The position numbers were made by a program, and so were the translations under genes. A model generated the notes under the pieces. The model made no database searches and was not told the DNA's origin. It saw only the letters and a list, made by a program, of their open reading frames with translations. Of a stretch of DNA of 64,000 bases, positions 5,816 to 58,105 are shown one piece after another. Each line of letters opens with the position of its first letter. Positions within the stretch are counted from its first letter, which is position 1. The stretch comes from Stappia sediminis (lineage in GTDB: Bacteria; Pseudomonadota; Alphaproteobacteria; Rhizobiales; Stappiaceae). Where the stretch lies: positions 124,001 through 188,000 of the forward strand of contig NZ_WUMV01000001.1 of the NCBI RefSeq assembly GCF_009826895.1, written 5' to 3'.

Positions 5816-6051
5816 CCCGGCTCTCGCGATACGCGTACCCTGGCGCTGGGGGATTCAAGTTTGCGTTAGTGACAGGTGAAAGTGTAATTTACAGTTGCGT
5901 GCCGATTTGCGAGCAGTAGGCGCGCGAAACCATGCCGCCCTTGCACCCCTCGTCGCTGCCTGATCGCGCGAATCCTTAGCCAAAATCAGAAGGCGGCATG
6001 AGTATTAGTGAATGATAAACTCTATGATATTCTGTCTGCCTTGGTGACGAA

Positions 6052-6531
6052 ATGAACGGAATATTAAATAATTTTGGCGTTCACGTCGCTTCAATATTAT
6101 ACATTTCGTTGGGTGCTCTGGTGATTGGAGTTTTCACTTTTTTCTTTAGAAATAAAAGTCGAGATTCTACCGTTTATTACATTTTATTATTGTATATCGT
6201 GTTACCAATTTTATATTATCTATTGGTCATTTCTGTGTATTCGAAGAGAAGAATTTTCTTAAGGGACGAAACTATGAATTTTGGGAAGAAATTTTCTATA
6301 TTTCTTGATTTCTTTCTCAATCCAAAAGTCCTGTTTTTTGAATTGATTCTAAGCCCCCACGTATTTCTCGTGTTTATTTCGGGATTTATCATGCTTCTGT
6401 GGGGAAGTTTTGACGCCTTAGCGGCTAGATATAAGCGGTTATCCATGATTTGGATAGCTATTTCCCTGCTTGGCGTAGTATGGAACTCTCTAATTCTGAG
6501 TGGAATGATGCAAAGCACAAAAGGTTACTGA
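6052..6531 (+). CDS. AT-rich orphan membrane protein
   Basis: A 159-residue protein with four likely transmembrane helices (about residues 12-33, 42-62, 95-117 and 130-150) and basic loops such as RNKSRD and SKRRIFLRD. I do not recognise a family. Its DNA is far richer in A and T than all neighbouring genes, with codons such as TTA, ATA and AAA that are rare elsewhere in the window, a sign of transfer. It sits between two blocks of REP-like repeats. The ATG was taken as start because it follows GTGACGAA and begins the hydrophobic pattern; there is no strong ribosome-binding site. Confidence 0.65.
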   Translation: MNGILNNFGVHVASILYISLGALVIGVFTFFFRNKSRDSTVYYILLLYIVLPILYYLLVISVYSKRRIFLRDETMNFGKKFSIFLDFFLNPKVLFFELILSPHVFLVFISGFIMLLWGSFDALAARYKRLSMIWIAISLLGVVWNSLILSGMMQSTKGY

Positions 6532-6588
6532 TATTAGCCAATATCGACAGGTCGCAGACGGTCTTCGGTCTGGTAGTTTCCGAACAAG

Positions 6589-6831
6589 CAATCCCGCGCT
6601 AGCGGGCATCTCGCAGCATACATACCGTGCCCTCTCTATCGTCATCGCCGGGCCTAGACCCGGCGACCCATCGAACTTTGACGAAACACGCCAATGCTGC
6701 ATGGGTGCGCGGGTCGAGCCCGCGCATGACGAACCTGGAAGTTTTCGCAAGATGGTCGGAGCAAGAGCCTACAACCTCTCCTCCGTCCTTGCCGCCTGTC
6801 TCCGACCTGATCGGGGAGGTTTGCCTAACAA
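6589..6831. repeat. Second REP-like repeat block
   Basis: This block again contains ACCGTGCCCTCTCTATCGTC (near 6629), two further GC palindromes (GGGCCTAGACCC near 6651; GCGGGTCGAGCCCGC near 6710) and GCCGCCTGTCTCCGACCTGA (near 6790), which matches the 5641-5661 part of the first cluster with one change. Together with 5277-5815 it brackets the AT-rich gene at 6052-6531. Confidence 0.7.
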
Positions 6832-7027
6832 CCCATCAAGCGCTTGCCGATTTCGCGTACGTGCAGGCGCGCGAGTATTTGCTGGCGGAGTGAGACTTGA
6901 TCACGACGGAGCTGAGCTCAACGTGCTTTCGGAAATAGCCGATACTCTCCTTGGTGGACGTGTTGCGCTCCGTTTGGTGAAAGCGGTTCGTCAATGGGCA
7001 GACAGAGAAACTGCAAACATGTTATAA
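6832..7027 (+). pseudogene. Possible gene remnant
   Basis: After the repeat block one frame continues to a stop at 7025-7027. It reads LNVLSEIADTLLGGRVALRL and ends WADRETANML, a helix-like pattern that looks more like real protein than the random frames around it. There is no start codon or ribosome-binding site, and the upstream part of the frame is repeat DNA, so at best it is the tail of a broken gene. I cannot name the family. Confidence 0.25.
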
Positions 7028-7138
7028 TACGTATGACTTATTGCGATAAGCCTGCACGTAGCGATAGCGTCTTGCGATGATATACGTTTTCAGTTGTTGG
7101 CGAAAATTATTTAGCATCCAGCGTCAAGGTGGCCGAAT

Positions 7139-7795
7139 ATGATTCGTGGGCTGCTAACCGGCATTCTTGTCAGTGTGTGTTTGGCTGGAGACTTGAGTGC
7201 AGCGAATGCGTTGAAAGTCGGGGAACCGGCTTATGATAGTTCGTTAGTTGGGGGTAATGATCTTCGAGATAGATTAGAAAATGCATTGGCTGATAGTCTG
7301 CATCGATTTAAAGCAGGCCTTGATGAAATCAGCGTAAAAAATTGCTCTATTAAAGTAAAAAAAATTCTTGTGAAACGCTGCAATTTTAGGGAGAGGGCAA
7401 TTGCGCGCACAATGCTAATAAATTTGACCGAAGTGTCCGACGTTGAGGTAAGCCAAATAGGTGCTGTAAAAGCGTTAAATTTCAGATTTACTAAGAAGAT
7501 ATGGAGAATAAGAGAAAAGAGCTATCAATTATTTCAAAGTATTACGGATGTTCCGCCAGCGCTTCTGCCAGAAATAGATAGTTTTGATAGAGATATATTT
7601 ATTCAAACGAAGAAGTCTAGGATGGTAGAAGAATATTTAAAATCCCATGGCGTTTTTTCTGCGTCAAAAATATATACTTGCTATGGATATTACTACAATG
7701 AAGATAATATTGGAGGTATGAAGATTTTTTTAGATTATAAGGATACGTCCAAAATTCAAAAAGACTTATACGCATTAATTAAGTCGTGCAGTTAG
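7139..7795 (+). CDS. AT-rich orphan secreted protein
   Basis: A 218-residue protein with a Sec signal peptide (MIRGLLTGILVSVCLAGDLS, probable cut after the SAANA region). The mature protein is basic and has four cysteines in two neighbourhoods (NCSIKV and KRCNF; IYTCYG and the final KSCS), suggesting periplasmic disulfides. No family is recognised. Its codon use is AT-rich, like the gene at 6052 and unlike the chromosome around it. The following 210 bases to the uvrB stop are AT-rich and hold nothing I can identify. Confidence 0.65.
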   Translation: MIRGLLTGILVSVCLAGDLSAANALKVGEPAYDSSLVGGNDLRDRLENALADSLHRFKAGLDEISVKNCSIKVKKILVKRCNFRERAIARTMLINLTEVSDVEVSQIGAVKALNFRFTKKIWRIREKSYQLFQSITDVPPALLPEIDSFDRDIFIQTKKSRMVEEYLKSHGVFSASKIYTCYGYYYNEDNIGGMKIFLDYKDTSKIQKDLYALIKSCS

Positions 7796-8009
7796 AGAAT
7801 AAAATATGTCTGGATAATATACTTACAATAATAGGGGATAATTTTCTTCTACATCATAAAAATCAATAATATGTTGGTCTTCTTCAGCGCCCTCATACGA
7901 CAGGGTGAAAGTGATACCTGTTGCCAAAATTCACCTCAATTAATCGAATCGAAATCGATCAACTTTAGATTACTTTTCATGTGGCGTGTAATTATCTAAA
8001 TTTAAAAAT

Positions 8010-17189: not shown

Positions 17190-18047
17190 CTAATCCCGCA
17201 CTGCGCTGCGGAAAGCGGCAGCGAGCGCGGCGATGGCATCGCGCGGGCGGCCGTCCCCGACCCTCGAATGAAGAAGAATCGGCAAGCGCGGCAACTGCGG
17301 AAGGCCAAGGCGGGGTCCCACGTCCACCGCCCCGAGCGGCAACATGCGCCGGGCCAATGCGGCAACGCCAAGTCTGGCCATGACGGCGGCGGAGACCGCC
17401 GTAACGCCTCCGCCTACGAAGACTTCCGTCCATGGCACGCCGGCCTTGTCCAGGAGCTCGCAGGCCATATTACGCACTCCGCAAGGCTCGGGCATCGTGG
17501 CAAGCGGCAGAGGCTCGCCAGCGCGCTGCTGCCAGTCGGGTGCCGCGAACCAGCCGAAACTTTCTTCCTTCAGGACTTCTCCGTCATCTCGCCCCGCATG
17601 CTGGCGAACCATCACCACGTCGAGTTCGCGTTGGTCGTAGCTTTGAAGCAGGGCGCTCGAAGTTCCTAGCCGGATTTCGATGACCAGTTGCGGATCCTGG
17701 GCGTTCATTCGCGCGATCAATGCGGGCAGTTCCGGCCCCGCGACATGGTCGCTTATGCCGATTGCAAGCCTTTGCCGGGTTGCGTCGAAAGCCGCGAACG
17801 CACGATCTTGCGCCTCCAGCAGTTCGCGGGCGTGATCGAGGAACACCGCGCCCTGTGCCGAAAGCTGCACGCGCCGGGGCGTACGCTCGACAAGCCGGCA
17901 TCCGAGCCTTTCTTCAAGCCGCTTGAGCTTAAGGCTGATCGCCGACTGCGTCGTTCGCGCGGTTTCGGCGGCGCGTGTGAAGCTGCCCAACTCGGCGATA
18001 CGTACGAATGCCTGCACCGCGTCGAGGTCAAGGGGGCGTTCTGTCAT
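17190..18047 (-). CDS. LysR-family regulator of the BKACE locus
   Basis: A 285-residue LysR-type regulator. The helix-turn-helix is at residues 8-66 (LDAVQAFVRIAELGSFTRAA, then TTQSAISLKLKRLEERLG). The effector domain contains the usual IGISDHVAGPELPALIARMN start. It is divergent from a BKACE gene, and a motif 25 bases upstream of its start recurs before the downstream tautomerase gene, so it very likely controls all three. The inducer is unknown, possibly the BKACE substrate or product. Confidence 0.9.
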   Translation of the reverse strand: MTERPLDLDAVQAFVRIAELGSFTRAAETARTTQSAISLKLKRLEERLGCRLVERTPRRVQLSAQGAVFLDHARELLEAQDRAFAAFDATRQRLAIGISDHVAGPELPALIARMNAQDPQLVIEIRLGTSSALLQSYDQRELDVVMVRQHAGRDDGEVLKEESFGWFAAPDWQQRAGEPLPLATMPEPCGVRNMACELLDKAGVPWTEVFVGGGVTAVSAAVMARLGVAALARRMLPLGAVDVGPRLGLPQLPRLPILLHSRVGDGRPRDAIAALAAAFRSAVRD

Positions 18048-18071
18048 TTACATTTCCAATGTCTAAAATTC

Positions 18072-18092
18072 CCATCCATTGCATATCAAAAT
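18072..18092. promoter_or_regulatory. Candidate LysR operator, copy 1
   Basis: A 21-base motif, CCATcCATTGcATATCAA plus aAT, which matches 18 of 21 bases at 19236-19256 upstream of the tautomerase gene. It holds the half-sites ATTG-N5-CAA. It lies between the divergent LysR and BKACE genes, where an autoregulating LysR protein would bind. Confidence 0.55.
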
Positions 18093-18210
18093 AAATGGGC
18101 CGATCCTAATGTAAAGCGACGACAAAACGGAAAGACCCGCGCCACCGATAGTATCGTGTTGCGCGAGGCATACATCCACTTGAACACCTTGAAAACGCGG
18201 GAGGGGGACA

Positions 18211-19137
18211 ATGCCCAAACCAGTTATTATCACCTGCGCCGTCACCGGCTCCATTCACACCCCGTCCATGTCGCCGCATCTGCCCGTCACGGCGGCGGAG
18301 ATCGCGGAAGCCGCGATTGAGGCGGCGGAAGCAGGAGCCGCGATCGTGCATCTTCATGCCCGCGATCCGAAGGATGGCCGGCCGCTGCAGCACCCCGACG
18401 CTTTCCTGCCGTTCCTGCGGGTCATCAAGCAGCGGTCGGATTGCGTGGTCAATATCACTACTGGCGGCGCCGCGACGATGACGATCGAGGAGCGGCTGGA
18501 GCCCGCATCGAGGTTCAAGCCGGAAGTCGCCTCGCTCAACATGGGGTCGATGAATTTCGGGCTTTATCCGATGCTCGGCCGCTTCAAGGATCTTAAATAC
18601 GAATGGGAACGTGAGTATCTGGAAGGCTCTCGCGACCGGGTCTTCAAGAACACATTCGCCGATATCGAAATGATACTGACGAAATGCGCGGAAAACGGCA
18701 CCAGGTTCGAGGTCGAATGTTATGATATCGGCCACCTTTACACGCTGGCGCACTTCGCCGACCGCGGGGTCATCAAGCCGCCGTTCTTCGTGCAAAGCGT
18801 CTTCGGGATCCTCGGTGGTATCGGCGGCCATCCGGAAGACGTGATGATGATGAAGCGAACGGCAGACCGTCTCTTCGGCGAGGATTATCACTGGTCGGTG
18901 CTTGGCGCGGGCCGCAATCAACTGCCGATAGCCGCACAGGCGGCCGCACTGGGCGGCAATGTGCGCGTCGGGCTTGAGGATTCGCTTTGGGCCGGACCGG
19001 GCAAGCTCGCGACAAGCAGCGCGGAGCAGGTTCGCAAGGTGCGCCAGATCATCGAAGGGCTCGGCCTTTCCATCGCCACACCTGAGGATGCGCGAGCCAC
19101 GCTGGAATTGAAGGGCGCTGATGCAGTGGCGTTTTGA
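18211..19137 (+). CDS. BKACE family beta-keto acid cleavage enzyme (DUF849)
   Basis: A 308-residue BKACE protein, the family of Kce (3-keto-5-aminohexanoate cleavage enzyme). These zinc enzymes join a beta-keto acid with acetyl-CoA, giving acetoacetate and a new acyl-CoA. Evidence: ITCAVTGS near the start, AAIVHLHARDPKDGRP with the metal-ligand HLH, NITTGGA, and FEVECYDIGHL, then FGILGGIGG. The substrate class cannot be assigned from motifs alone. It lies in a divergon with a LysR gene and is followed by a tautomerase gene; together they suggest a small catabolic pathway for an unknown keto acid. Confidence 0.92.
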   Translation: MPKPVIITCAVTGSIHTPSMSPHLPVTAAEIAEAAIEAAEAGAAIVHLHARDPKDGRPLQHPDAFLPFLRVIKQRSDCVVNITTGGAATMTIEERLEPASRFKPEVASLNMGSMNFGLYPMLGRFKDLKYEWEREYLEGSRDRVFKNTFADIEMILTKCAENGTRFEVECYDIGHLYTLAHFADRGVIKPPFFVQSVFGILGGIGGHPEDVMMMKRTADRLFGEDYHWSVLGAGRNQLPIAAQAAALGGNVRVGLEDSLWAGPGKLATSSAEQVRKVRQIIEGLGLSIATPEDARATLELKGADAVAF

Positions 19138-19160
19138 ACTTCAGGCGCCATCCCCTTAGC

Positions 19161-19191
19161 GGCGGTGGATCCGGGATCAGGCTCCACCGCC
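19161..19191 (+). terminator. Hairpin between BKACE and tautomerase genes
   Basis: GGCGGTGGA (19161-19169) and TCCACCGCC (19183-19191) form a perfect 9-bp stem with a 13-base loop. No T tract follows, so it may be an attenuator or a weak terminator. It separates the two genes, and the second gene has its own operator-like motif. Confidence 0.4.
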
Positions 19192-19235
19192 TCTTGGACG
19201 GCCTAATTCATTTACGATTATAATCTCTGATATCG

Positions 19236-19256
19236 CCATTCATTGGATATCAATAT
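19236..19256. promoter_or_regulatory. Candidate LysR operator, copy 2
   Basis: CCATtCATTGgATATCAA plus tAT; 18 of 21 bases match 18072-18092. It contains the dyad ATTG-GATAT-CAAT and a T-N11-A pattern. It lies 50 bases before the tautomerase start, which suggests that this gene has its own LysR-controlled promoter. Confidence 0.55.
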
Positions 19257-19305
19257 GACAGGGCGGCATCTAAGGTTCCTGCTCCAAAGAACGAAAGGAC
19301 ACAAG

Positions 19306-19686
19306 ATGCCGCTCTTGCACATATCGATGCGCTCCGGAAAGTCGGAAGCCTACAAGCAGGCGATTTTCGACGGCCTCTATCAGGCCATGCGCGAGACGTT
19401 CAGCGTGCCCGAAGATGATCAGTTCATGGCCATCACAGAGCATGACGCCTCTAACTTTCGCGCCAGCAAGACCTATTACGATATCGCCCGCAGCGATGAC
19501 GTGATCTTTGTTCAGATCAGCGCGATGAACTCACGCACGGCAGAGCAGAAGAAGGCGCTTTACAAGCGGATCGTGGAACTGCTCGGCGAAAACCCCGGCA
19601 TCCGCAAGGAAGATGTCTTCATCAACCTCATCGAGGGCGTGAAGGAGAACTGGTCCCTCGGTCAGGGACTTGCGCAATACGCGTGA
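19306..19686 (+). CDS. Tautomerase family protein
   Basis: A 126-residue member of the tautomerase (4-OT/MIF) superfamily. The mature protein begins with Pro after Met removal (MPLLHISMRSGKS), and this Pro-1 is the general base for keto-enol tautomerisation. Later parts (MRETFSVPEDDQFMAITEHD; EDVFINLIEGVKENWSLGQG) match longer, 'putative oxalocrotonate tautomerase'-like proteins. The start is set by AAAGGAC before the ATG and by the need for Pro-2. It likely acts in the same pathway as the BKACE enzyme. The substrate is unknown. Confidence 0.88.
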   Translation: MPLLHISMRSGKSEAYKQAIFDGLYQAMRETFSVPEDDQFMAITEHDASNFRASKTYYDIARSDDVIFVQISAMNSRTAEQKKALYKRIVELLGENPGIRKEDVFINLIEGVKENWSLGQGLAQYA

Positions 19687-19883
19687 GGTGAGGCCGCGCT
19701 GGTCTTCAGCACGGGAAATGCGGCTGCGAGCTCCAGTTGAGGCATTCATACGGGGTGTTGCAGCCGACCCGCTCCATAGCGCATCATGTAGCCCCGCCGC
19801 AGGCATGATGTGCGCTCGTGTTTTTCAAGTTCGAGCTGCCAATATTCTGGAACTAGCGCCAATTCCCGGTTCTCGCGGCTTAA

Positions 19884-21158
<1,275 letters not shown>

Positions 21159-21189
21159 TCGACCCGTTCGGCGAACGGATAACTCCCGA

Positions 21190-21217
21190 GGGCGGCTTCG
21201 TGCCGCCCTTGTTTTTT
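21190..21217 (+). terminator. Rho-independent terminator of aatA
   Basis: GGGCGGC-TTCGT-GCCGCCC followed by TTGTTTTTT, 30 bases after the aatA stop. A perfect 7-bp GC stem with a T tract. Confidence 0.9.
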
Positions 21218-21427
21218 GAAGAGCGCGTTAAAGTTCGCTCCAATCGAAAAGATCTTCAGGAATTCCTGGAAACGGGATTTTCACTTCCGATTGACGCCGG
21301 CGGATATGACATATTGTCCGGGAATGAAGATCATTGATTGTAAAATAAAAATATGCGACTGTTGTTTGTAATTATCAAATAGTGGCAATTAAGTCATTGT
21401 TTATAAACATGAATATTGGAGGGTGTA

Positions 21428-21862
21428 ATGTCGCGTCTTTCCGGTTTTGTTTTGGCTTTGGTGTTCTTCTGCGTCAGCTCCGTAGCCATGGCGGATGGAG
21501 CCTCTCTAACCGCGCTTTCGGTGTGGGAAAATCAGAGGGGGTCCAAGCTGACTATCGAGACAATAGACCCGACCACAGGCGTTTTGACGGGAAACTATAT
21601 AAACAACGCGGCGGGATATGGATGCATCGGCTCTCCATATCGGGTCGTGGGCTACGTGTATGGAAATTTGATCGGCTGGTCCGTTCGCTGGAGCAATGCC
21701 CATGAAGATTGCCAGTCCATCACCTCATGGACAGGGTATTATCAGAACGGGACAATCACCACGCAGTGGGAACTTGTTTACGGGACACAGATCAACGACG
21801 GCGCCGATATGTTTACCTCTGTTGCCAAGCGAGAGTTGCAAGGTTTGAAACTGGCACAGTGA
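21428..21862 (+). CDS. Rhizavidin-like (dimeric-type) avidin family protein
   Basis: A 144-residue exported protein; the signal peptide is about residues 1-22 (ending SVAMA). The mature barrel matches avidin/streptavidin and most closely rhizavidin. Biotin-contact positions appear conserved: N35 and S39 in WENQRGS, Y57 in GNYIN, W88 in GWSVRW, S97, T99 and W101 in SITSWTGY, W114 in TTQWEL and D127 in GADMF. C66 (GYGCIGSPY) and C95 (HEDCQS) sit where rhizavidin has its disulfide, and the streptavidin inter-dimer Trp is absent, so a dimer is expected. It presumably binds biotin tightly in the periplasm or outside the cell. The upstream 200 bases are AT-rich. The ATG after TTGGAGGGTGTA was chosen. 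Confidence 0.88.
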   Translation: MSRLSGFVLALVFFCVSSVAMADGASLTALSVWENQRGSKLTIETIDPTTGVLTGNYINNAAGYGCIGSPYRVVGYVYGNLIGWSVRWSNAHEDCQSITSWTGYYQNGTITTQWELVYGTQINDGADMFTSVAKRELQGLKLAQ

Positions 21863-22147
21863 AAATTTTCGTCTTGTAAGAACCGGTTGCGTCTCCGTGT
21901 GAAACGCAGCCTCATTCACAGGGTGTCGAAGTCGCCCCGCGCGCTTCTCCTTGCGTTTCCTTGGCGTTTATTGCGCCATCCCGGCCTTGTTCATGGGGTC
22001 ATGACCTTGGGTCTGGATCCATGATCCGTCGGCAATGATATGATGCGACCTGGCCGCGTTTTTTCTTGGAAAACGCGGTTTCATGCTGTCATTCTTCCAT
22101 CACGTCAGTGGGTTGGGGTGCGTCTATCCGAAATCGGGAGATAAGCC

Positions 22148-22618
22148 ATGCTGCGATTCCTGTTGGTGGTCGTCCTTTCCTGCGCATCGTTTTCGGTGCT
22201 TGCCCAAAGCGGTCCGGGCGTGGAGGCCGGCGTCCTCAGGTGCAACGTAAGCAGTGGCGGGTCCTTCATTTTCGGGTCGACGAAGGGCCTTTTGTGCACC
22301 TTCAAGCCTGCGGGCAATCGCGCGGAAGAAACCTATACCGGGACGATCAACAAGTTCGGGATCGACATCGGCGAAGTCAAAGCAGCGGAGTTCATCTGGG
22401 CGGTTCTCGCCCCTTCCGCGGATCTCGATCCCGGAGCCCTTGAAGGCAATTACGCCGGTGTCTCGGCCGGAGCGACGGTCGGCTACGGGGTTGAGGCGAA
22501 CGCGCTGATCGGCGGCTTCGACAAGTCGATAGCTCTCAACCCTTTGAGCGTGGCGGGCACGCAGGGGCTCGACATTCAGGCTGGCGTCGCCTCTCTTTCG
22601 CTGAAAGCCGGGAAGTAA
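22148..22618 (+). CDS. DUF992 family secreted protein
   Basis: A 156-residue exported protein: signal peptide MLRFLLVVVLSCASFSVLAQ, then the DUF992 pattern (VEAGVLRCNVSSGGSFIFGS; LLCTFKP; YTGTINKFGIDIG; then a long stretch of small residues ending in SLSLKAGK). Two cysteines (RCNV, LCTF) probably form a disulfide. DUF992 proteins are abundant in Hyphomicrobiales and of unknown function. It follows the avidin-like gene by about 285 bases on the same strand; both products are exported, but no shared operon can be claimed. Confidence 0.85.
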   Translation: MLRFLLVVVLSCASFSVLAQSGPGVEAGVLRCNVSSGGSFIFGSTKGLLCTFKPAGNRAEETYTGTINKFGIDIGEVKAAEFIWAVLAPSADLDPGALEGNYAGVSAGATVGYGVEANALIGGFDKSIALNPLSVAGTQGLDIQAGVASLSLKAGK

Positions 22619-22907
22619 ATTCTACCGGTTTCTCTTACGCCTTTTCGCGCTGCGGCAATGGTTTTCCTTGCGTTCGCGGGTGGATCGGCGCGACCATGAA
22701 CGACCGCCCGCGCACTGGCGGACGGCGGCGCGGATTACGCTACGCCGAATGCGGCGTGATGCTCTTCGCGCCGGCCCTGGACGGCCGGGAAAGGCTTTGG
22801 CCGCCCGAGGGCTTGATCCGGAGCGCTTCCGCCCGGCCCTGGGTCCGGTCGCGCGCTCCGCGGTCCGGCTGCGTCCGCGGTCTGGCCAAACCAACGGAGG
22901 CGACACC

Positions 22908-24977
22908 ATGGGAGAAGACCGTAAAGGGGGACAGACCGGCGGCAGACGAGAGGGGCCCCGGTGCATTGCGATAATCGGGCCGTTTGCCAGTGGCAAGACC
23001 ACGCTGCTCGAAGCCATCCTCGCCCGCACGGGGGCCATACACAGACAGGGAACGATTTCCGACGGGAATACCGTTGGCGACGGCGCGCCGGAAGCGCGAG
23101 ATCATTCCATGAGCGTCGAGGTCAATGTGGCCGAGACGGACTATTTGGGGGATACCTATACGTTTCTAGATTGTCCCGGTTCGGTCGAGTTCCTGAGCGA
23201 AGCGGATGGCGTGCTGGCAGGCGTCGACATGGCGATCGTCGTGGCCGAGGCCGACGAGAAAAAAGTCCCCGCCCTTCAGGTTCTCTTGAAGAAGCTTGAG
23301 GATCACGGCATTCCCAGGGTGCTTTTCCTGAACAAGATCGACAAGACGACGATGCGCGTGCGCGACGCCCTGGAGCTTCTTCAGCCGGCCTCGAGCGTGC
23401 CGATGGTATTGCGTCAGATCCCGATCTGGAAAGACGGAATAGCGATCGGCTTCATCGATCTCGCGCTGGAACGCGCCTTCGTCTACCGCGAACACGCGGA
23501 AAGCCTCGTCATCGATATGCCGGACGACGAGCAGGTGCGCGAGGTGGAAGCCCGCTTCGAAATGCTGGAGAAACTTGCGGACCACGACGACGTTCTCATG
23601 GAAGCGCTTCTTGAGGATATCGCTCCCGGCAAAGAGAGGGTATTCGGCGATCTCGTCGACGAGTTGCGCCAGGGCATCATCTGTCCGGTCTTCATCGGCT
23701 CCGCCGAACACGGTAATGGCATCCAGCGTTTGATGAAGGCGATACGCCACGAAGCGCCCGACATCGAGATCACGCGGCAGCGGATCGGCCTCGACGCGAA
23801 TGCGGATACGACGATCCAGGTGCTCAAGACGCTGAACACGCTGCATGCCGGCAAGCTTTCGGTCGCGCGCGTGCTGACAGGCTCGGTCGGCGATAGTGAT
23901 ATACTGCATCGTCACGACGGATCGGAGTCCAAAGTTTCCGGCCTCTTCAAGCTGATGGGACAGCAGGCGACCAAGCGAGACCGCGCAGGCGTCGGGGAAA
24001 CCGTCGGCCTGGGCAAGCTCGACAAGGTGCAGACAGGCGAAACGCTCGGCGGTTCCGCCCCGGCCGAGCAGCTTTACACGCTCGATCCGCCGCCGCCGGT
24101 GCTTGCTCTGGCGGTTGCGCCGAAGGAGAGGCGCGACGAGGTGAAACTGTCCTCCGCACTTGCCAAGATCGCGGAGGAGGACAGGGGCCTCGTCGTAAGC
24201 CACACTCAGGATACGGCCGAGACGATCGTCGAAGGGCAGGGCGAGATGCATCTTCGCGTCGCGCTGGAGCGCCTTGCCGGCAAGTACGGGCTGGAGGTGG
24301 AAAAGCAGCCGGCCATCGTTCCCTACCGCGAAACGATCCGTGGCAGCACGACGGTGCGAGGGCGGCACAAGAAGCAGTCCGGCGGCCACGGCCAGTTCGG
24401 CGATGCCGTTCTGGAAATCCGCCCGCTGGAGCGCGGCGCGGGATTTGCCTTCGATGACCGCATTACCGGTGGCGTCGTGCCGAAGCAGTATATCCCCGCC
24501 GTCGGCGAAGGCGTGAAGGAAGCGCTCCATCACGGGCCGCTTGGCTTTCCCGTGGTCGATGTCGGCGTGACGCTTACCGATGGATCGTATCACTCGGTGG
24601 ACTCCTCCGATCAGGCGTTCCGGATGGCGGCCATCCTGGGCATGCGCGAAGGTCTGCCGCAATGCAATCCCGTGCTGCTGGAGCCGATCTACCAGGTGTC
24701 GATCTTCTGCCCCAACGATGCCACGGCGAAGGTCAACGCCATCGTGTCGTCGCGCCGCGGTCAGATCCTCGGTTTCGATGCGCGCGACGGCTGGACAGGC
24801 TGGGACGAGGTTAAGGCGATGATGCCGGAAGCGGAGATTGGCGAATTGATAGTCGAGCTCCGCTCGGCAACGGCGGGCGTCGCCAGCTACACCAAGCGCT
24901 TCGACCATATGGCCGAACTTTCGGGCAAGACGGCCGAAGAGATCTGCAGCCGTTTCGGGCGTAGCCAGGCTGCCTGA
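22908..24977 (+). CDS. Elongation factor G-like GTPase, divergent
   Basis: A 689-residue protein with the five-domain layout of EF-G. GTPase motifs: P-loop GPFASGKT (residues 24-31), DCPGS (88-92), NKID (142-145). The catalytic-position His of canonical PGH is Ser92 here, and switch I lacks the standard RGITI sequence. Domains II to V follow (SHTQDTAETIVEGQGEMHLR in domain III; HKKQSGGHGQFGDAVLE in domain IV). Such EF-G-like paralogs are known in alphaproteobacteria, with unclear roles in ribosome handling. The ATG was chosen because of ACGGAGGCGAC upstream; the open frame extends 80 codons further left without coding character. Confidence 0.88.
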   Translation: MGEDRKGGQTGGRREGPRCIAIIGPFASGKTTLLEAILARTGAIHRQGTISDGNTVGDGAPEARDHSMSVEVNVAETDYLGDTYTFLDCPGSVEFLSEADGVLAGVDMAIVVAEADEKKVPALQVLLKKLEDHGIPRVLFLNKIDKTTMRVRDALELLQPASSVPMVLRQIPIWKDGIAIGFIDLALERAFVYREHAESLVIDMPDDEQVREVEARFEMLEKLADHDDVLMEALLEDIAPGKERVFGDLVDELRQGIICPVFIGSAEHGNGIQRLMKAIRHEAPDIEITRQRIGLDANADTTIQVLKTLNTLHAGKLSVARVLTGSVGDSDILHRHDGSESKVSGLFKLMGQQATKRDRAGVGETVGLGKLDKVQTGETLGGSAPAEQLYTLDPPPPVLALAVAPKERRDEVKLSSALAKIAEEDRGLVVSHTQDTAETIVEGQGEMHLRVALERLAGKYGLEVEKQPAIVPYRETIRGSTTVRGRHKKQSGGHGQFGDAVLEIRPLERGAGFAFDDRITGGVVPKQYIPAVGEGVKEALHHGPLGFPVVDVGVTLTDGSYHSVDSSDQAFRMAAILGMREGLPQCNPVLLEPIYQVSIFCPNDATAKVNAIVSSRRGQILGFDARDGWTGWDEVKAMMPEAEIGELIVELRSATAGVASYTKRFDHMAELSGKTAEEICSRFGRSQAA

Positions 24978-25003
24978 GCGGGTTTGGAAAATTCGGATCG
25001 ACG

Positions 25004-25031
25004 GCCGGCGGCGGGAGCGCCGCCGGCTTTT
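25004..25031 (+). terminator. Rho-independent terminator of the EF-G-like gene
   Basis: GCCGGCGGCG-GGAG-CGCCGCCGGC followed by TTTT; perfect 10-bp stem, 26 bases after the stop. Confidence 0.85.
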
Positions 25032-25084
25032 CCTGTTCTGGACCTGGCACCGCGCGGCCATACCTATTGCTGAAGAATGAGGTC

Positions 25085-26239
25085 ATGGACGAACGGGAGG
25101 CAAGGTTGCGCAACAGCCTTCTCATTGCGGCCTGCACCATTGCAGGCGCCTGTGCCAATACGGTCGGTGCCGAGGACATCCACAACGCGGGATCGGCCAC
25201 CTTCAGCGTCACGCGCATGACGCAGGCACTCGACCACCCCTGGGGGTTCGATTTTCTGCCGGACGGGGCCGTTCTCGTGAACGAGCGCGATGGCCGGATG
25301 CTGTATTTCCCGCCGGACCTCCAGCAAGCGGCTCCGGTCAAGGGCGTCCCGGAGGTCAGGGCGTCCGGGCAGGGCGGCCTGCTCGACCTGGTGGTCGCAC
25401 CCGATTTTGGGTCCTCGGGGCGCATCTATTTCACTTTCTCGGAGCCTGGGTCCGGCGGTGCGGGAACGGCGGCGGCAAGTGCCGAGTTCATTCGCGATGG
25501 CGCAGGTCCGCGCCTTGAGAATGTGCGCGTCATCATGCGCATGGACAAAAAGACGGGAGCCGGGCGCCATTTCGGTTCGCGCGTCGTGCCCGCGCGTGAT
25601 GGCACTGTCTATGTCACGACCGGCGACAGGGGCGAGAGCGAGCGGGCGCAGGATCCGTTTGACCATGCGGGCTCGGTCCTGAGGGTGAATGCCGATGGAT
25701 CGATCCCGGCGGATAATCCGTTTGCGGACGGAAAAGAGGGATTGCCCGAGCTCTGGTCGATGGGCCACCGAAATATTCAGGGCGCGGCCCTTCAGCCGGA
25801 AACAGGCGAATTATGGACTGTCGAGCACGGCGCGCGCGGCGGTGACGAGATCAATCGCCCTCAGGCTGGCCTGAACTACGGCTGGCCCGTGATTTCCTAC
25901 GGCAGGCATTACTCGGGCGGGAAAATCGGGGTCGGAACCGAAGCAGATGGCTACGAGCAGCCGGTGCACTATTGGGATCCGTCGATCGCCCCGTCCGGAA
26001 TGGCGTTTTACGCCGGCGAAGCGGTGCCTGAATGGACGGGCGACATGTTCGTCGGTGCGCTCAAGGACCAGTTGATCGCCCGCCTCCAGATCGAGGGCGG
26101 AAAAGTCGTCGGCGAGGAGCACCTTATCGAAGGCGACTACGGGCGGATCCGTACGATCAGGAACGGGCCGGGCGGTACGCTCTGGTTTTCGACGGATGAG
26201 TCCGATGGCGCTCTTTATCGCATTGGTGCTGCGCCCTGA
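25085..26239 (+). CDS. PQQ-dependent sugar dehydrogenase (aldose sugar dehydrogenase-like)
   Basis: A 384-residue soluble beta-propeller of the GDH-B/YliI (Asd) family, which oxidises aldose sugars in the periplasm with PQQ. An N-terminal hydrophobic segment (about residues 8-30) serves for export. Conserved parts are LDHPWGFDFLPDG (propeller start), GQGGLLDLVVAPDF, HFGSRVVPARDGTVYVTTGD (His and Arg near PQQ), SMGHRNIQGAALQPETGELW and EHGARGGDEIN. The ATG follows ATGAGGTC; an earlier TTG is possible. No PQQ biosynthesis genes are present in this window. Confidence 0.9.
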   Translation: MDEREARLRNSLLIAACTIAGACANTVGAEDIHNAGSATFSVTRMTQALDHPWGFDFLPDGAVLVNERDGRMLYFPPDLQQAAPVKGVPEVRASGQGGLLDLVVAPDFGSSGRIYFTFSEPGSGGAGTAAASAEFIRDGAGPRLENVRVIMRMDKKTGAGRHFGSRVVPARDGTVYVTTGDRGESERAQDPFDHAGSVLRVNADGSIPADNPFADGKEGLPELWSMGHRNIQGAALQPETGELWTVEHGARGGDEINRPQAGLNYGWPVISYGRHYSGGKIGVGTEADGYEQPVHYWDPSIAPSGMAFYAGEAVPEWTGDMFVGALKDQLIARLQIEGGKVVGEEHLIEGDYGRIRTIRNGPGGTLWFSTDESDGALYRIGAAP

Positions 26240-26391
26240 GGCTGTTTCTCCCGTTTTGTTCAACTGAGCTTGATTTGAGGCTCGCCGTGACGCGCGTTAC
26301 CTATCTATCAAAGGGCAGGCTCGCTGGCGTCTGTCCGCAACGTGACATACGGGCGGTAGACGGCCGGAAAAGAGTCAAGCTGGAGGGAATG

Positions 26392-27357
26392 ATGCACATC
26401 CTGCGCAAAAGAAGCTGGGAAATTCCGGAATCCCAGGCAACACCGGAAGAGGTGTTCTTGAACCGCCGTTCGGTGCTTGCCGGCCTTGCCGGCGCGGGCG
26501 CACTTGTCGCCGGCGGCGTGGGGCTGCCGCGGGCGGCGTTCGCGGAAGCGGATCCGAGCGCGCATCTTTACCCCGCGAAACGCAACGAAGCCTATACGGT
26601 CGACCGTGAGCTTACGCCGGAAGACGTCGCGTCGAAGTTCAATAATTTCTATGAGTTCGGCTCGCACAAGCAGATCTCCCGCGCCGCGCAGGCGCTTCAG
26701 ATCCGCCCTTGGGATATCCTTATCGACGGAATGGTCGACAACCCTCAGACGATCGCCATCGACGACCTTCTGAAAAAGGTTACGCTGGAGGAGCGTCTTT
26801 ATCGTTTCCGTTGCGTTGAAGCGTGGTCGATGACGGTGCCGTGGTCGGGCTTTCCGCTTGCCGATCTCGTCAAGCTGGCCTCGCCGAAAGCCGGTGCCAA
26901 ATACATCCGTTTCGAGACGTTCAACGATCCGGACCTCGCCAGCGGTCAGCGTGCCAACTGGTATCCCTGGCCCTATGTCGAGGGTGTGACCATGGAAGAG
27001 GCGACCAATGAGCTCGCCTTCATGGTTACAGGCGTGTATGGCAAGTCGCTGCCCAAGCAGCACGGCGCGCCCATTCGCCTTATGCTTCCCTGGAAATACG
27101 GCTTCAAATCCATCAAGTCGATTGTGAAGATGACCTTCACCGACGAGCGCCCGGTGAGCTTTTGGGAAGAGATCCAGGGCTCGGAATACGGTTTCTGGGC
27201 GAATGTGAACCCGGAAGTGCCGCACAGGCGCTGGAGCCAGGCTCGCGAAACGGTGCTCCACACTGGCGAGAAGGTGCCCACGCTTCTGTTCAACGGTTAC
27301 ACGGAGCAGGTGGCCCACCTCTACAAGGGCCTCGAGGGCGAGCAGCTCTACATGTGA
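26392..27357 (+). CDS. msrP: Periplasmic protein-methionine-sulfoxide reductase, catalytic subunit
   Basis: MsrP (YedY), 321 residues, is a molybdopterin enzyme that repairs oxidised Met in periplasmic proteins. A twin-arginine signal is seen at residues 24-50 (LNRRSVLAGLAGAGALVAGG). The Mo ligand is C141 in FRCVEAWSMTVPW. ANWYPWPYVEG and PIRLMLPWKYGFKSIKSIVK are family signatures. The second of two adjacent ATGs fits the GGAGGGA site better. The membrane partner MsrQ (heme b) is usually next door but is not adjacent here; after the stop there is a terminator. Confidence 0.95.
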   Translation: MHILRKRSWEIPESQATPEEVFLNRRSVLAGLAGAGALVAGGVGLPRAAFAEADPSAHLYPAKRNEAYTVDRELTPEDVASKFNNFYEFGSHKQISRAAQALQIRPWDILIDGMVDNPQTIAIDDLLKKVTLEERLYRFRCVEAWSMTVPWSGFPLADLVKLASPKAGAKYIRFETFNDPDLASGQRANWYPWPYVEGVTMEEATNELAFMVTGVYGKSLPKQHGAPIRLMLPWKYGFKSIKSIVKMTFTDERPVSFWEEIQGSEYGFWANVNPEVPHRRWSQARETVLHTGEKVPTLLFNGYTEQVAHLYKGLEGEQLYM

Positions 27358-41068: not shown

Positions 41069-43042
41069 ATGCGTTTTCCGCCGTCCCTGCTCGATGAAAT
41101 TCGCGTAAGGCTGCCGCTTTCCGATGTGGTCGGGCGCCGTGTGAGCTGGGACCGGCGCAAGACGCAGCCCGCGCGTGGCGATTTCTGGGCCTGCTGCCCG
41201 TTTCACCAGGAAAAGACGCCGAGCTTCCACGTCGATGACAGGCGCGGACGCTACAAGTGCTTCGGCTGCGGCGCGTCCGGGGACCATTTCCGGTTTCTGA
41301 CCGATACCGAGGGCCTGAGCTTTCCCGAAGCGGTGGAGCGTCTTGCCGAGCAGACGGGCGTCGCCTTGCCGAAGCCCGATCCGCAGGCCGAAAAGCGCGA
41401 GCAGCGCCGCGCCAGCCTTGCCGAAATTTGCGAGATGGCGGCGAGGTTCTTCCAGGCCGAATTCGCAACGTCAGGCGGTGCCGCGGCGCGGGACTATTGC
41501 GCCCGGCGCGGGTTGAAGGGCGATACGCTGAAGGAGTTTCGCTTCGGTTTCGCGCCCAACGGTCGCGACGCCTTGAAGCGGCATCTGGTTTCCAGGGGCG
41601 TCGACGAGGCGGATATGATCGAGGCTGGCCTCGTCATCAAGCCGGACGACGGGCGGGCAAGTTACGACAGGTTCCGCAACCGGCTGATAATCCCGATTCA
41701 GGACGATCGCGGCCGCGTCGTCGCCTTCGGCGGGCGCACGCTCGACCCCGATGGTCAGCCGAAATACCTGAATTCGCCGGAAACGCCGCTTTTTCACAAG
41801 GGCGCACTTGTCTTCAACGCTCACCGCGCGCGAGAGCCCGCCTTCAAATCCGGTCAGGCGATCGTTGCCGAAGGTTATATGGATGCGATTGCCATATGGC
41901 AGGCAGGTTTTCCGGCCGTGGTCGCGACACTGGGGACGGCATTCACCGAAGAGCAGATTGCACGCATCTGGAAGCTTTCCGCGGAGCCGATCATTTGTTT
42001 TGACGGCGATGTTGCCGGTGTGTCGGCGGCGCATCGCGCGCTGGACCGTATCGCGCCGGTGCTGAGAAGCGGCTATTCCTTCAATTTCGTATTCCTGCCG
42101 GACGGAAAGGATCCGGACGATCTGATCCGCGCCGGCGGCGCACCGGCCTTTCGGGAAGCCTTGTCCGGCGCCAAGCCGCTTATCGACGTCCTGTGGGAGC
42201 GCGAGGCTTCCGTTGCGCAAATCGATACGCCCGAACGCAAGGCGGCGCTTGAGAAGCGCTTTGAGGATATCGTCCGCCAGATAAAGGACGAGCGTGTTCG
42301 CCGGCGTTATCAACTCGATATCAGGCTAAGGCTCTCGAACCTTTTTTTCGAGCAGTCGCGCGCCGCGCGAGGCTTCGCCAGGGGGCAGGGGCGCGGGCGT
42401 GGGGCTGGCCAGTTCACGGAACCGGGCCTCAAGGACCGGCTAGAGCGCCCGGACGGTCCGATGTTCGGAACGGAGCGCACGCTATGCGGGCTTTGCCTGA
42501 AGTATCCGGGCCTGTTCGAGCGTCATGTGGAACGTGTCTCGCAGTTGCCGCTGCATGATGAGCTTCATGGCCGGTTCCGGGATGAATTGTGCCGCGTGGC
42601 GACCGAACTCGATAGCGCGCAGGTCAGCGATTTCTTCGACAAGCTGGACGAGCGTTTCTATCGAATTCTGTCGGAAGCCCTCGATATGCCCGAGGCTGTC
42701 GAAACGAGATCGGCGCCCGCCGAGGCCGTTCGGGCGCGTTTCCAGGACCTGATCCAGCGCCTTCCCGTACTTCGATACGACCCGCCCGAGGATTTTGTGG
42801 AGCATCTGTTCCTTCATTTCCTGGACGTTCTGGAGACGAGCGCGCTCGAACGCGAACTTGAGCAGGAAATGGCCAGCGCGGACGAAGATTTCGACGACGC
42901 GGCGTGGGACAGGATCAAGGCGCTGACGCAGGATCTTTCCCGCCGTCGCGAGGAGTGCGCGCGCGATGAGCAGGAACTTGCCGAACGTGGCCGAAAACTG
43001 CGTGAAACAGGGCAATCGGTTGTGTTCGCCAAGGCCGGATGA
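41069..43042 (+). CDS. dnaG: DNA primase
   Basis: DnaG, 657 residues, makes RNA primers at the replication fork. The N-terminal zinc-binding domain shows C43/H46/C64/C67 (CPFHQEKTPSF; YKCFGCG). The RNA polymerase core includes the Toprim parts IVAEGYMDAIA and IICFDGDVAG. The C-terminal DnaB-interaction region is about residues 450-650 and is less conserved. It lies upstream of rpoD on the same strand, as in the macromolecular-synthesis order of many bacteria. Confidence 0.97.
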   Translation: MRFPPSLLDEIRVRLPLSDVVGRRVSWDRRKTQPARGDFWACCPFHQEKTPSFHVDDRRGRYKCFGCGASGDHFRFLTDTEGLSFPEAVERLAEQTGVALPKPDPQAEKREQRRASLAEICEMAARFFQAEFATSGGAAARDYCARRGLKGDTLKEFRFGFAPNGRDALKRHLVSRGVDEADMIEAGLVIKPDDGRASYDRFRNRLIIPIQDDRGRVVAFGGRTLDPDGQPKYLNSPETPLFHKGALVFNAHRAREPAFKSGQAIVAEGYMDAIAIWQAGFPAVVATLGTAFTEEQIARIWKLSAEPIICFDGDVAGVSAAHRALDRIAPVLRSGYSFNFVFLPDGKDPDDLIRAGGAPAFREALSGAKPLIDVLWEREASVAQIDTPERKAALEKRFEDIVRQIKDERVRRRYQLDIRLRLSNLFFEQSRAARGFARGQGRGRGAGQFTEPGLKDRLERPDGPMFGTERTLCGLCLKYPGLFERHVERVSQLPLHDELHGRFRDELCRVATELDSAQVSDFFDKLDERFYRILSEALDMPEAVETRSAPAEAVRARFQDLIQRLPVLRYDPPEDFVEHLFLHFLDVLETSALERELEQEMASADEDFDDAAWDRIKALTQDLSRRREECARDEQELAERGRKLRETGQSVVFAKAG

Positions 43043-56890: not shown

Positions 56891-57808
56891 ATGTCTTATT
56901 TTAATTTATTGAAGTTTCTTGCTCTTCAGCTTGTGATTTTGTTGGCGCTTAGCTTCCCAGTAAGTGCTTGTGATCCCAATGAGAATTGTAGCAGATGTCT
57001 GATTAGTAATCCGTTTGGAGGTTGCACCTTGCGCGGAAACGACCCTGTATGTGAAGCAAGAAAGAAGACATGTCAGGTTGGGGGAGGTGCTGTAACTGGA
57101 GCGATATTTTCCGGGCCATTGCGTCAGGGTGGCATTGTTCCCCGAGAAACAGTAAAAAAATGCCTTGAGAGGCCACGAGATTGTTCGAATGAAATAATTG
57201 CGAGAGGGGGATATAGTTTTGTTCGCCCGATCATAGACCAATACATTTCTGATTTGCGAAGGCAAGCATCGGGTAAATACTTCAGAATTTCACCTAAATT
57301 AAAGAATGATCTTTCTAGATATTTTCGATTTGACTTAAGTTTAGTGAAAATTGCATTTGATATTAATACACGGCATGGGCAACATATCACGATTGGGTAC
57401 GAAATATACTTTACAAATCGAATCGATTTCGCAACCTGTGCAGGCTTTCAGCTTCTGGCGCATGAACTTGAACATGTCGATCAATACCGTCGTAGAGGCG
57501 GGATTGAGCCGTTTATGTCCGAATATGTTATGAAATCCGTGGGGCAAGTGTTGTCACGTCGTTCATTTAACGTGCACGACTATATCGACATCGAGAGCTC
57601 CGCCATCTCAAAAGGTAGCAGTGTGGGCTGTCCCAACTTAGTCAGAGGATCTCCGCCTCACTTAATGCCTGGAGCAGTAAGACCACCGCAAATGGGGCAA
57701 ACTTGCTCGACGCCATGGGGGCGTTGCTTGATGAACGTAGTGGCGCCATTCGGGTCGCAATGTTTTTGCGCCACGAACGGTGGGCCTATCGGCGGTGTCG
57801 TACCCTAA
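56891..57808 (+). CDS. Secreted protein with DUF4157-like HELEH motif
   Basis: A 305-residue exported protein: hydrophobic signal (residues 5-26), then a Cys-rich start (CDPNENCSRCLISNPFGGCT). Residues 189-201 read LAHELEHVDQYRR, with the zinc-protease pattern H191-E192-x2-H195 and the HVxQ that follows it in DUF4157 putative metallopeptidases. The C-terminus is again Cys-rich (QTCSTPWGRCLMNVVAP, then CFC). A periplasmic or secreted peptidase is inferred; the third metal ligand cannot be fixed. Codon use is AT-rich, unlike the flanking genes. It is the only clear cargo of the tRNA-bounded mini-island. Confidence 0.8.
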   Translation: MSYFNLLKFLALQLVILLALSFPVSACDPNENCSRCLISNPFGGCTLRGNDPVCEARKKTCQVGGGAVTGAIFSGPLRQGGIVPRETVKKCLERPRDCSNEIIARGGYSFVRPIIDQYISDLRRQASGKYFRISPKLKNDLSRYFRFDLSLVKIAFDINTRHGQHITIGYEIYFTNRIDFATCAGFQLLAHELEHVDQYRRRGGIEPFMSEYVMKSVGQVLSRRSFNVHDYIDIESSAISKGSSVGCPNLVRGSPPHLMPGAVRPPQMGQTCSTPWGRCLMNVVAPFGSQCFCATNGGPIGGVVP

Positions 57809-58105
57809 ATCGGTAGATCGATTGGATTTCCTACGTTCAATAAAAAGTCTTTTATAATACTTTTTCGCCCGGAAGCTGTAGAGGCATGTATGCCAATTTG
57901 AGAATAATGGCATTGAATTTAAAGTTATTTTGGGGTGATCAACAATGAATAGAGATATTTTTTCATATCCAATAAAATAGAGATCAATTGTCTGACTGCA
58001 AGACCGCGTGGAAAGACAGATTGATGTCTCCCTCTACTCCAAGGCTTTACTCCGAAGAATCTATATCTATCTGAAATATATAGATCTCTTATGGTGTGTG
58101 TCTTT

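Follow-up and report, generated by a model that had tools for sequence, protein, structure and literature searches.

The window, a stretch of 64,000 nucleotides of Stappia sediminis, carries an avidin gene on its forward strand at positions 21428–21862, encoding a precursor of 144 amino acids. The open reading frame (ORF) begins with an ATG at 21428, has a Shine-Dalgarno-like GGAGG close upstream, and ends with a TGA at 21860–21862. An alternative in-frame TTG start is possible at 21416, upstream of the ATG, but the homologous gene of Hongsoonwoonella zoysiae has an ATG at the position aligned to 21428, which speaks against it. The ORF matched the Pfam Avidin family (PF01382) with 52.7 bits (cut-off 24, E = 6.8e-14), while the NCBIfam streptavidin equivalog NF047623 scored 34.4 bits, below its cut-off of 300. 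A sequence search of the PDB returned 152 distinct sequences at E <= 0.001. The best match was wilavidin (7ouq; E = 6.7e-31, 110.5 bits), followed by shwanavidin (93.9 bits), afifavidin (85.6) and rhizavidin (76.7). The ORF is a genuine avidin, far beyond a chance match, and the original prediction of a biotin-binding-type protein was thus borne out at the level of the family.

Eight genes flank the avidin gene between 17190 and 27357: a LysR regulator, a BKACE enzyme, a tautomerase-like ORF, an aspartate aminotransferase (aatA), a DUF992 gene, an EF-G-like gene, a PQQ-type dehydrogenase-like gene and a molybdopterin oxidoreductase. The avidin gene is not adjacent to biotin genes. A second DUF992 gene, 51% identical to this neighbor (22148–22618), lies at another place in the genome. 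Between aatA and the avidin gene, a pattern match marks a terminator-like hairpin at 21187–21211 on the forward strand. An upstream element of 37 bases lies at 21334–21370 on the same strand, 58–94 bases before the avidin start, and is kept in the window and in H. zoysiae. As it had a single match in each of these two avidin-bearing genomes and none in a third genome of the genus, no regulon was seen. A 12-bp palindrome, TGTTTATAAACA, sits between this element and the start codon (21398–21409) and is absent at that place in H. zoysiae. Regulation by BioR was also considered and rejected. The BioR motif, TTATMKATAA, had no exact match in the window, and the surroundings of BioY in two genomes held none even with one mismatch allowed; at two mismatches there were two matches in locus L001, one at window 21397–21406 upstream of the avidin gene. 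This is the chance level, since shuffled sequence gave two or more such matches in 61 of 200 runs.

Next, we compared the predicted protein with streptavidin, entered in the alignment as a typed-in sequence. Ten of the 13 biotin contacts of streptavidin are identical in the window avidin (window/streptavidin: N35/N23, S39/S27, Y57/Y43, W88/W79, S97/S88, T99/T90, W101/W92, W114/W108, L116/L110 and D127/D128). Two streptavidin contacts, S45 and N49, belong to the L3,4 loop, where avidins of this group carry an insertion that makes the alignment unreliable, and W120, the inter-dimer Trp, stands opposite a gap. The same ten identities and the same absence of W120 were found in all 12 non-streptavidin rows of the alignment. 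Two cysteines, Cys66 in the L3,4 loop (codon 21623–21625) and its presumed partner Cys95 in the L5,6 loop (codon 21710–21712), both on the forward strand, are conserved without exception in the 18 sequences aligned and would form a disulfide. According to PMC5398887, a disulfide between these loops occurs in rhizavidin, shwanavidin and hoefavidin and is important for biotin binding. Thus, three features named in the original prediction, namely the retention of nearly all biotin contacts, a rhizavidin-type cysteine pair and the lack of the inter-dimer Trp, were all recovered, and the window avidin is very likely a tight biotin binder, judging by these residues.

The main structural variation concerns the span from W114 to D127 (21767–21808, forward strand), which contains a shortened L7,8 hairpin and no inter-dimer Trp. 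This span could be read in 45 of 50 extracted avidins, many of them near-identical rhizavidins, and it measures 13 residues in the window and in H. zoysiae, 14 in locus L024, and 17–28 in the other readable avidins (17–18 in the known dimer types). Since the window and H. zoysiae tie as the shortest of the 45, the L7,8 hairpin has been cut short in their lineage. Locus L024 (4950–5411), with its span of 14 residues, is the avidin of an uncultured alphaproteobacterial metagenome-assembled genome (MAG) and lacks a C-terminal tail. Such a very short L7,8 loop may interest engineers of small, open avidins.

A single-chain AlphaFold2 model, whose input alignment comprised 18 proteins from the window and the loci, had a mean pLDDT of 80.5. 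Confidence was highest in the barrel (92–95), intermediate in the two blocks of the cysteine loops (80–81), and low in the first 30 residues (51–62) and in residues 136–144 (<50). The model shows eight strands, from residues 31–34 to 121–131 (21518–21820, forward strand), forming the barrel that carries the biotin-contact residues, and all 50 Foldseek matches listed were avidins. Wilavidin ranked first (E 1.1e-12; TMt 0.83–0.86 for full-length chains and 0.88 for a short form) and shwanavidin followed. The biotin complexes of wilavidin (7ouq) and shwanavidin were among the top matches, and because the predicted fold matches these biotin-bound relatives, the biotin pocket of the window barrel would likewise be open. 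The N-terminus, where pLDDT is low, reads as a putative Sec signal peptide (residues 1–22; 21428–21493, forward strand), with a hydrophobic core followed by AMA/D. The avidin is therefore probably exported, either to the periplasm or out of the cell.

In a maximum-likelihood tree of 23 avidins, from which shwanavidin was left out, the window avidin paired with that of H. zoysiae (support 100/99). This pair belongs to a group of 17 rows that also holds a wilavidin group (five rows, 99/97) and a rhizavidin group (nine rows, 96/97); the branching order among the three is not settled, and the program warned of long branches meeting. The avidin of a Roseibium MAG, the other carrier in the family Stappiaceae, falls inside the rhizavidin group. 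The label "rhizavidin-like" in the original prediction therefore holds broadly, for the 17-row group, and fails narrowly, since the window avidin lies outside the nine-row rhizavidin clade, pairs with H. zoysiae and is nearer to wilavidin and shwanavidin by score. A survey of bacterial avidins that covers the dimer clade is given in PMC8033661. The literature searched yielded no work treating avidin together with Stappiaceae, and the papers naming Hongsoonwoonella deal, going by their titles, with taxonomy, sponge isolates and hopanoids.

We then examined which genomes carry avidins and whether they can make biotin. The genome of the window has one avidin copy. Carriers amount to two of three genomes of the genus (the second being H. 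zoysiae SY4-7, family Stappiaceae), 3/87 of the family and 18/397 sampled from the order, so the expectation of a rare and patchy gene holds for the samples searched. In the window's own genome (completeness 100), no match to bioB exceeded the cut-off; the single weak match is lipoyl synthase (37 bits versus 225), and weak matches to the bioB model in other genomes were assumed to be the same. The genome does encode a BioY importer (123 bits), and the ORF just upstream of it resembles BioN; neither ORF had an NCBIfam match. The host thus seems unable to make biotin, as far as its gene content tells. The absence of bioB is the rule in the family, with 69 of 87 genomes lacking it (bioB in 18/87) and 86 of 87 having BioY, and is therefore no mark of avidin carriers (p = 1 for the test of bioB absence against avidin within the family).

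The order sample, in which 139 of 397 genomes had bioB, gave the opposite of a link between avidins and auxotrophy. Of the 18 avidin carriers 11 had bioB, compared with 128 of the 379 genomes without an avidin (p 0.023, Fisher test). Carriers of avidins of all types are thus more often equipped with bioB, which speaks against a general link, and the idea that avidins generally go with auxotrophy was rejected. Divided by avidin type, bioB occurred in 0/6 carriers of the rhizavidin/wilavidin clade versus 11/12 of the others (p 0.0004), a split made after the fact, with related genomes counted apart and only some of the 12 in the tree. Against the rate among avidin-less genomes, the 0/6 is not significant (p 0.18). 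In a named set, 11 of 31 carriers had bioB: 2/20 alphaproteobacteria of the rhizavidin/wilavidin clade, 4/6 bradyrhizobia and 5/5 gammaproteobacteria, the last of the wilavidin group. The 2/20 differ from the 128/379 non-carriers at p 0.027, a value to be read knowing that 13 of the 20 carry near-identical rhizavidins (those of Rhizobium and of one Rhizobiales record) and that the named set and the order sample may share some genomes. A like contrast, between Bradyrhizobium with biotin biosynthesis and Rhizobium with transport, is drawn in PMC8914248, and R. etli CFN42 is described there as a biotin auxotroph. The split within Hyphomicrobiales, with dimer-type carriers mostly lacking bioB and the others mostly having it, is post hoc and can be tested on larger, phylogenetically corrected sets.

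The role of bacterial avidins for their owners is still argued, and the present host offers a clean case: it has a single avidin gene and a single BioY, apparently lacks biotin synthase, and has a congener in which the avidin gene is missing. The original prediction called the role unknown, which is out of date. According to PMC8914248, a mutant of R. etli in ravA, the rhizavidin gene, declines more quickly when subcultured without biotin, and either added biotin or complementation restores it; the mutant also piles up PHB, and the authors propose a storage of biotin. Streptavidin, for its part, has been tied to sequestration and to self-resistance against acidomycin. We consider it about an even chance that the window avidin is an exported, dimer-type, high-affinity avidin that captures and stores scavenged biotin for its host. 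Its barrel would be open to biotin, and the C66–C95 disulfide would hold the L3,4 loop shut, standing in for the missing Trp of a neighboring dimer. The protein would then capture and keep scavenged biotin for a host without bioB and with BioY, as proposed for rhizavidin in R. etli. We infer affinity, export, the disulfide, oligomeric state and storage role alike, the last because the host lacks a biotin synthase and has BioY. Several observations count against storage: the lack of bioB is common throughout the family, bioB is commoner in avidin carriers overall in the order sample, the wilavidin-group carriers among the gammaproteobacteria all have it, the 0/6 of the rhizavidin/wilavidin clade does not differ significantly from the avidin-less rate, and the avidin gene lies apart from biotin genes, with no BioR-like site beyond chance at it or at BioY. 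That tightly bound biotin is hard to hand over would be a further point against.

Alternatively, the avidin could be secreted and withhold biotin from competitors or grazers, a role that streptavidin has long been supposed to have. The signal-peptide-like N-terminus agrees with such a role, and the patchy distribution, together with the high share of bioB among the carriers of the order sample, fits a weapon better than a store. Competition and defence are discussed in the survey PMC8033661. Streptavidin acts in an antibiotic network: according to PMC13336041, it is encoded in an antibiotic gene region and both sequesters biotin and neutralizes acidomycin. Denial nevertheless appears rather unlikely here. 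A secreted weapon of this kind would put the host at risk of starving itself, since it has no bioB, and no biotin-analogue cluster was seen among the eight flanking genes (17190–27357). Moreover, the only knock-out of a dimer-type avidin that we found, that of R. etli, has a phenotype of self-conservation (PMC8914248). Capture and storage is therefore favored over denial, on account of the host without bioB and the defect of the rhizavidin mutant in conserving biotin.

The evolutionary history of the locus bears on a further alternative, namely that the gene came in by horizontal transfer and does little or nothing for the host. The avidin gene has a GC content of 52%, versus 61–63% in three neighboring genes. 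The gene order aatA, DUF992, EF-G-like is kept in the three congeners, yet the avidin gene lies to the left of DUF992 in the window (between aatA and DUF992) and to its right in H. zoysiae (between DUF992 and the EF-G-like gene); the third congener had no avidin match. Relatives were found on 43 plasmid records, 37 of them of Rhizobium and all below 60% identity. Between the window and H. zoysiae, the avidin gene has a dN of about 0.155 and a pS of 0.71, near saturation, with dN/dS about 0.07 for the whole gene. In a comparison of 37 rows, the avidin pS of 0.694 is the second highest, and the other 36 have a median of 0.385; the one higher row is a LysR match at 30% identity, the next lower value (0.682) belongs to the ORF at 41069, wrong-frame ORFs are surely among the rows (e.g., 96–710, with pN > pS), and weak codon bias could also raise pS. 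DUF992 is raised as well (0.536). Simple vertical descent with the neighbors is doubtful, the avidin value lying far above the row median, and the pattern is what a local hot spot would give if the gene changed its place there or arrived there repeatedly; an old gene whose silent sites evolve faster is also possible. At the same time, the low dN/dS fits purifying selection. Such selection, together with a 37-base upstream element conserved between copies so far diverged at silent sites, stands against a gene without function, and we regard an acquisition with little or no role as improbable.

Mobile-element cargo was rejected too. No relatives were found in the phage records searched, none of 16 pattern matches in viral contigs was confirmed as an avidin relative, and the contig with the window copy is 735 kb long, the copy standing between genes whose order congeners keep. 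On plasmid pCC829_2 of Bradyrhizobium barranii, the PLSDB table, which is incomplete, lists no gene for an avidin-like ORF (L004:6001–6399) that has transposase genes and a VOC gene in its vicinity, and possible avidin remnants with open frames of only 46–47 amino acids are seen in Bradyrhizobium murdochi and B. hereditatis (L043, L044). Within the window, whose GC content is about 60%, low-GC stretches at 6001–8000 (0.37–0.46) and 57001–58000 (0.44) were possibly acquired; a 218-aa ORF in the former (7139–7795) had no Pfam match. In the neighborhoods of 11 relatives, Pfam searches of 20 flanking ORFs (18 of the 30 listed flanks plus two next neighbors) found no biotin-pathway families. A DAO/GCV_T flavoprotein adjoins the avidin gene in Rhizobium cremeum (L018:5789–8353) and Afifella pfennigii (L019:2299–4959), and translation GTPases are located close to the avidin gene in two cases, LepA in L022 and the EF-G-like gene in the window. 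These recurring neighbors were taken for chance.

Finally, the avidin may have drifted so that it binds biotin weakly or prefers a different small ligand, for instance through the short L7,8 loop shared with H. zoysiae. Such a drift would agree with the binding of acidomycin by streptavidin (PMC13336041), but is improbable, as the window and H. zoysiae copies have the same residue at each of the ten alignable contacts despite near-saturated silent sites.

Storage of biotin might also involve the C-terminal tail, 15 residues that follow D-x-F and end in GLKLAQ (21815–21859, forward strand). Comparison of rows found a tail of 13–15 residues in 16 of the 19 examined and of three residues in the other three (L024 and two bradyrhizobia). 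Near its end, 12 of the 16 tailed rows have S or T followed by L or F, counted by eye; the window pair has GLKL. The fixed length across a diverged family suggests that the tail has a function. Wilavidin forms hexamers. In hoefavidin, the tail occupies the biotin site, as reported in PMC5398887, and a hoefavidin variant separates as dimer, tetramer, hexamer and octamer. Because of a tail like that of hoefavidin and these several assemblies, the window avidin cannot be called a plain dimer in solution, and the naturally dimeric state that had been predicted is not established from sequence. As a long shot, the tail of each subunit may plug the pocket of its neighbor when biotin is lacking and hold dimers in a larger assembly; biotin would displace the tail, and the short L7,8 loop would let the vitamin leave to the BioY importer, making a biotin-gated store for an auxotroph. 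If so, alphaproteobacterial avidins of the rhizavidin/wilavidin type would be a scavenging aid of cells without bioB, unlike the sequestration avidins of biotin makers.

In conclusion, the window avidin adds a new member, with a small structural variation, to a kind of protein that is already known and has a patchy distribution. Its nearest relative is the avidin of H. zoysiae SY4-7 (L013), at 74–75% identity and with the same loop lengths and upstream element. Among solved structures, wilavidin (7ouq, 7our) is closest in sequence and predicted fold (48–51% identity in Foldseek) and has in common the short hairpin of strands 6–7, the cysteine pair and the GYGC loop; its tail has 14 residues. 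It differs in an L7,8 loop five residues longer (18 versus 13 from W to D) and in its carrier, a gammaproteobacterium with bioB; the aligned wilavidin stretch is identical to L014, from MAG Gammaproteobacteria SURF_13. Shwanavidin (3szh, 3szj), next in the PDB list and solved with biotin, has the same cysteine pair and a longer L7,8. Rhizavidin of R. etli p42d (3ew1, 3ew2) agrees in the cysteine pair, the contacts and the lack of the inter-dimer Trp, and has a tail of 14 residues, but is only 39% identical, belongs to another clade of the tree, has longer L6,7 and L7,8 loops and is plasmid-borne. Afifavidin and hoefavidin are of the same dimer type; the former is 39–43% identical in the fold search, and its tail (L019) lacks the S-L pattern. 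Streptavidin has the same ten contacts but no cysteine pair, while the window avidin has no equivalent of its Trp120.
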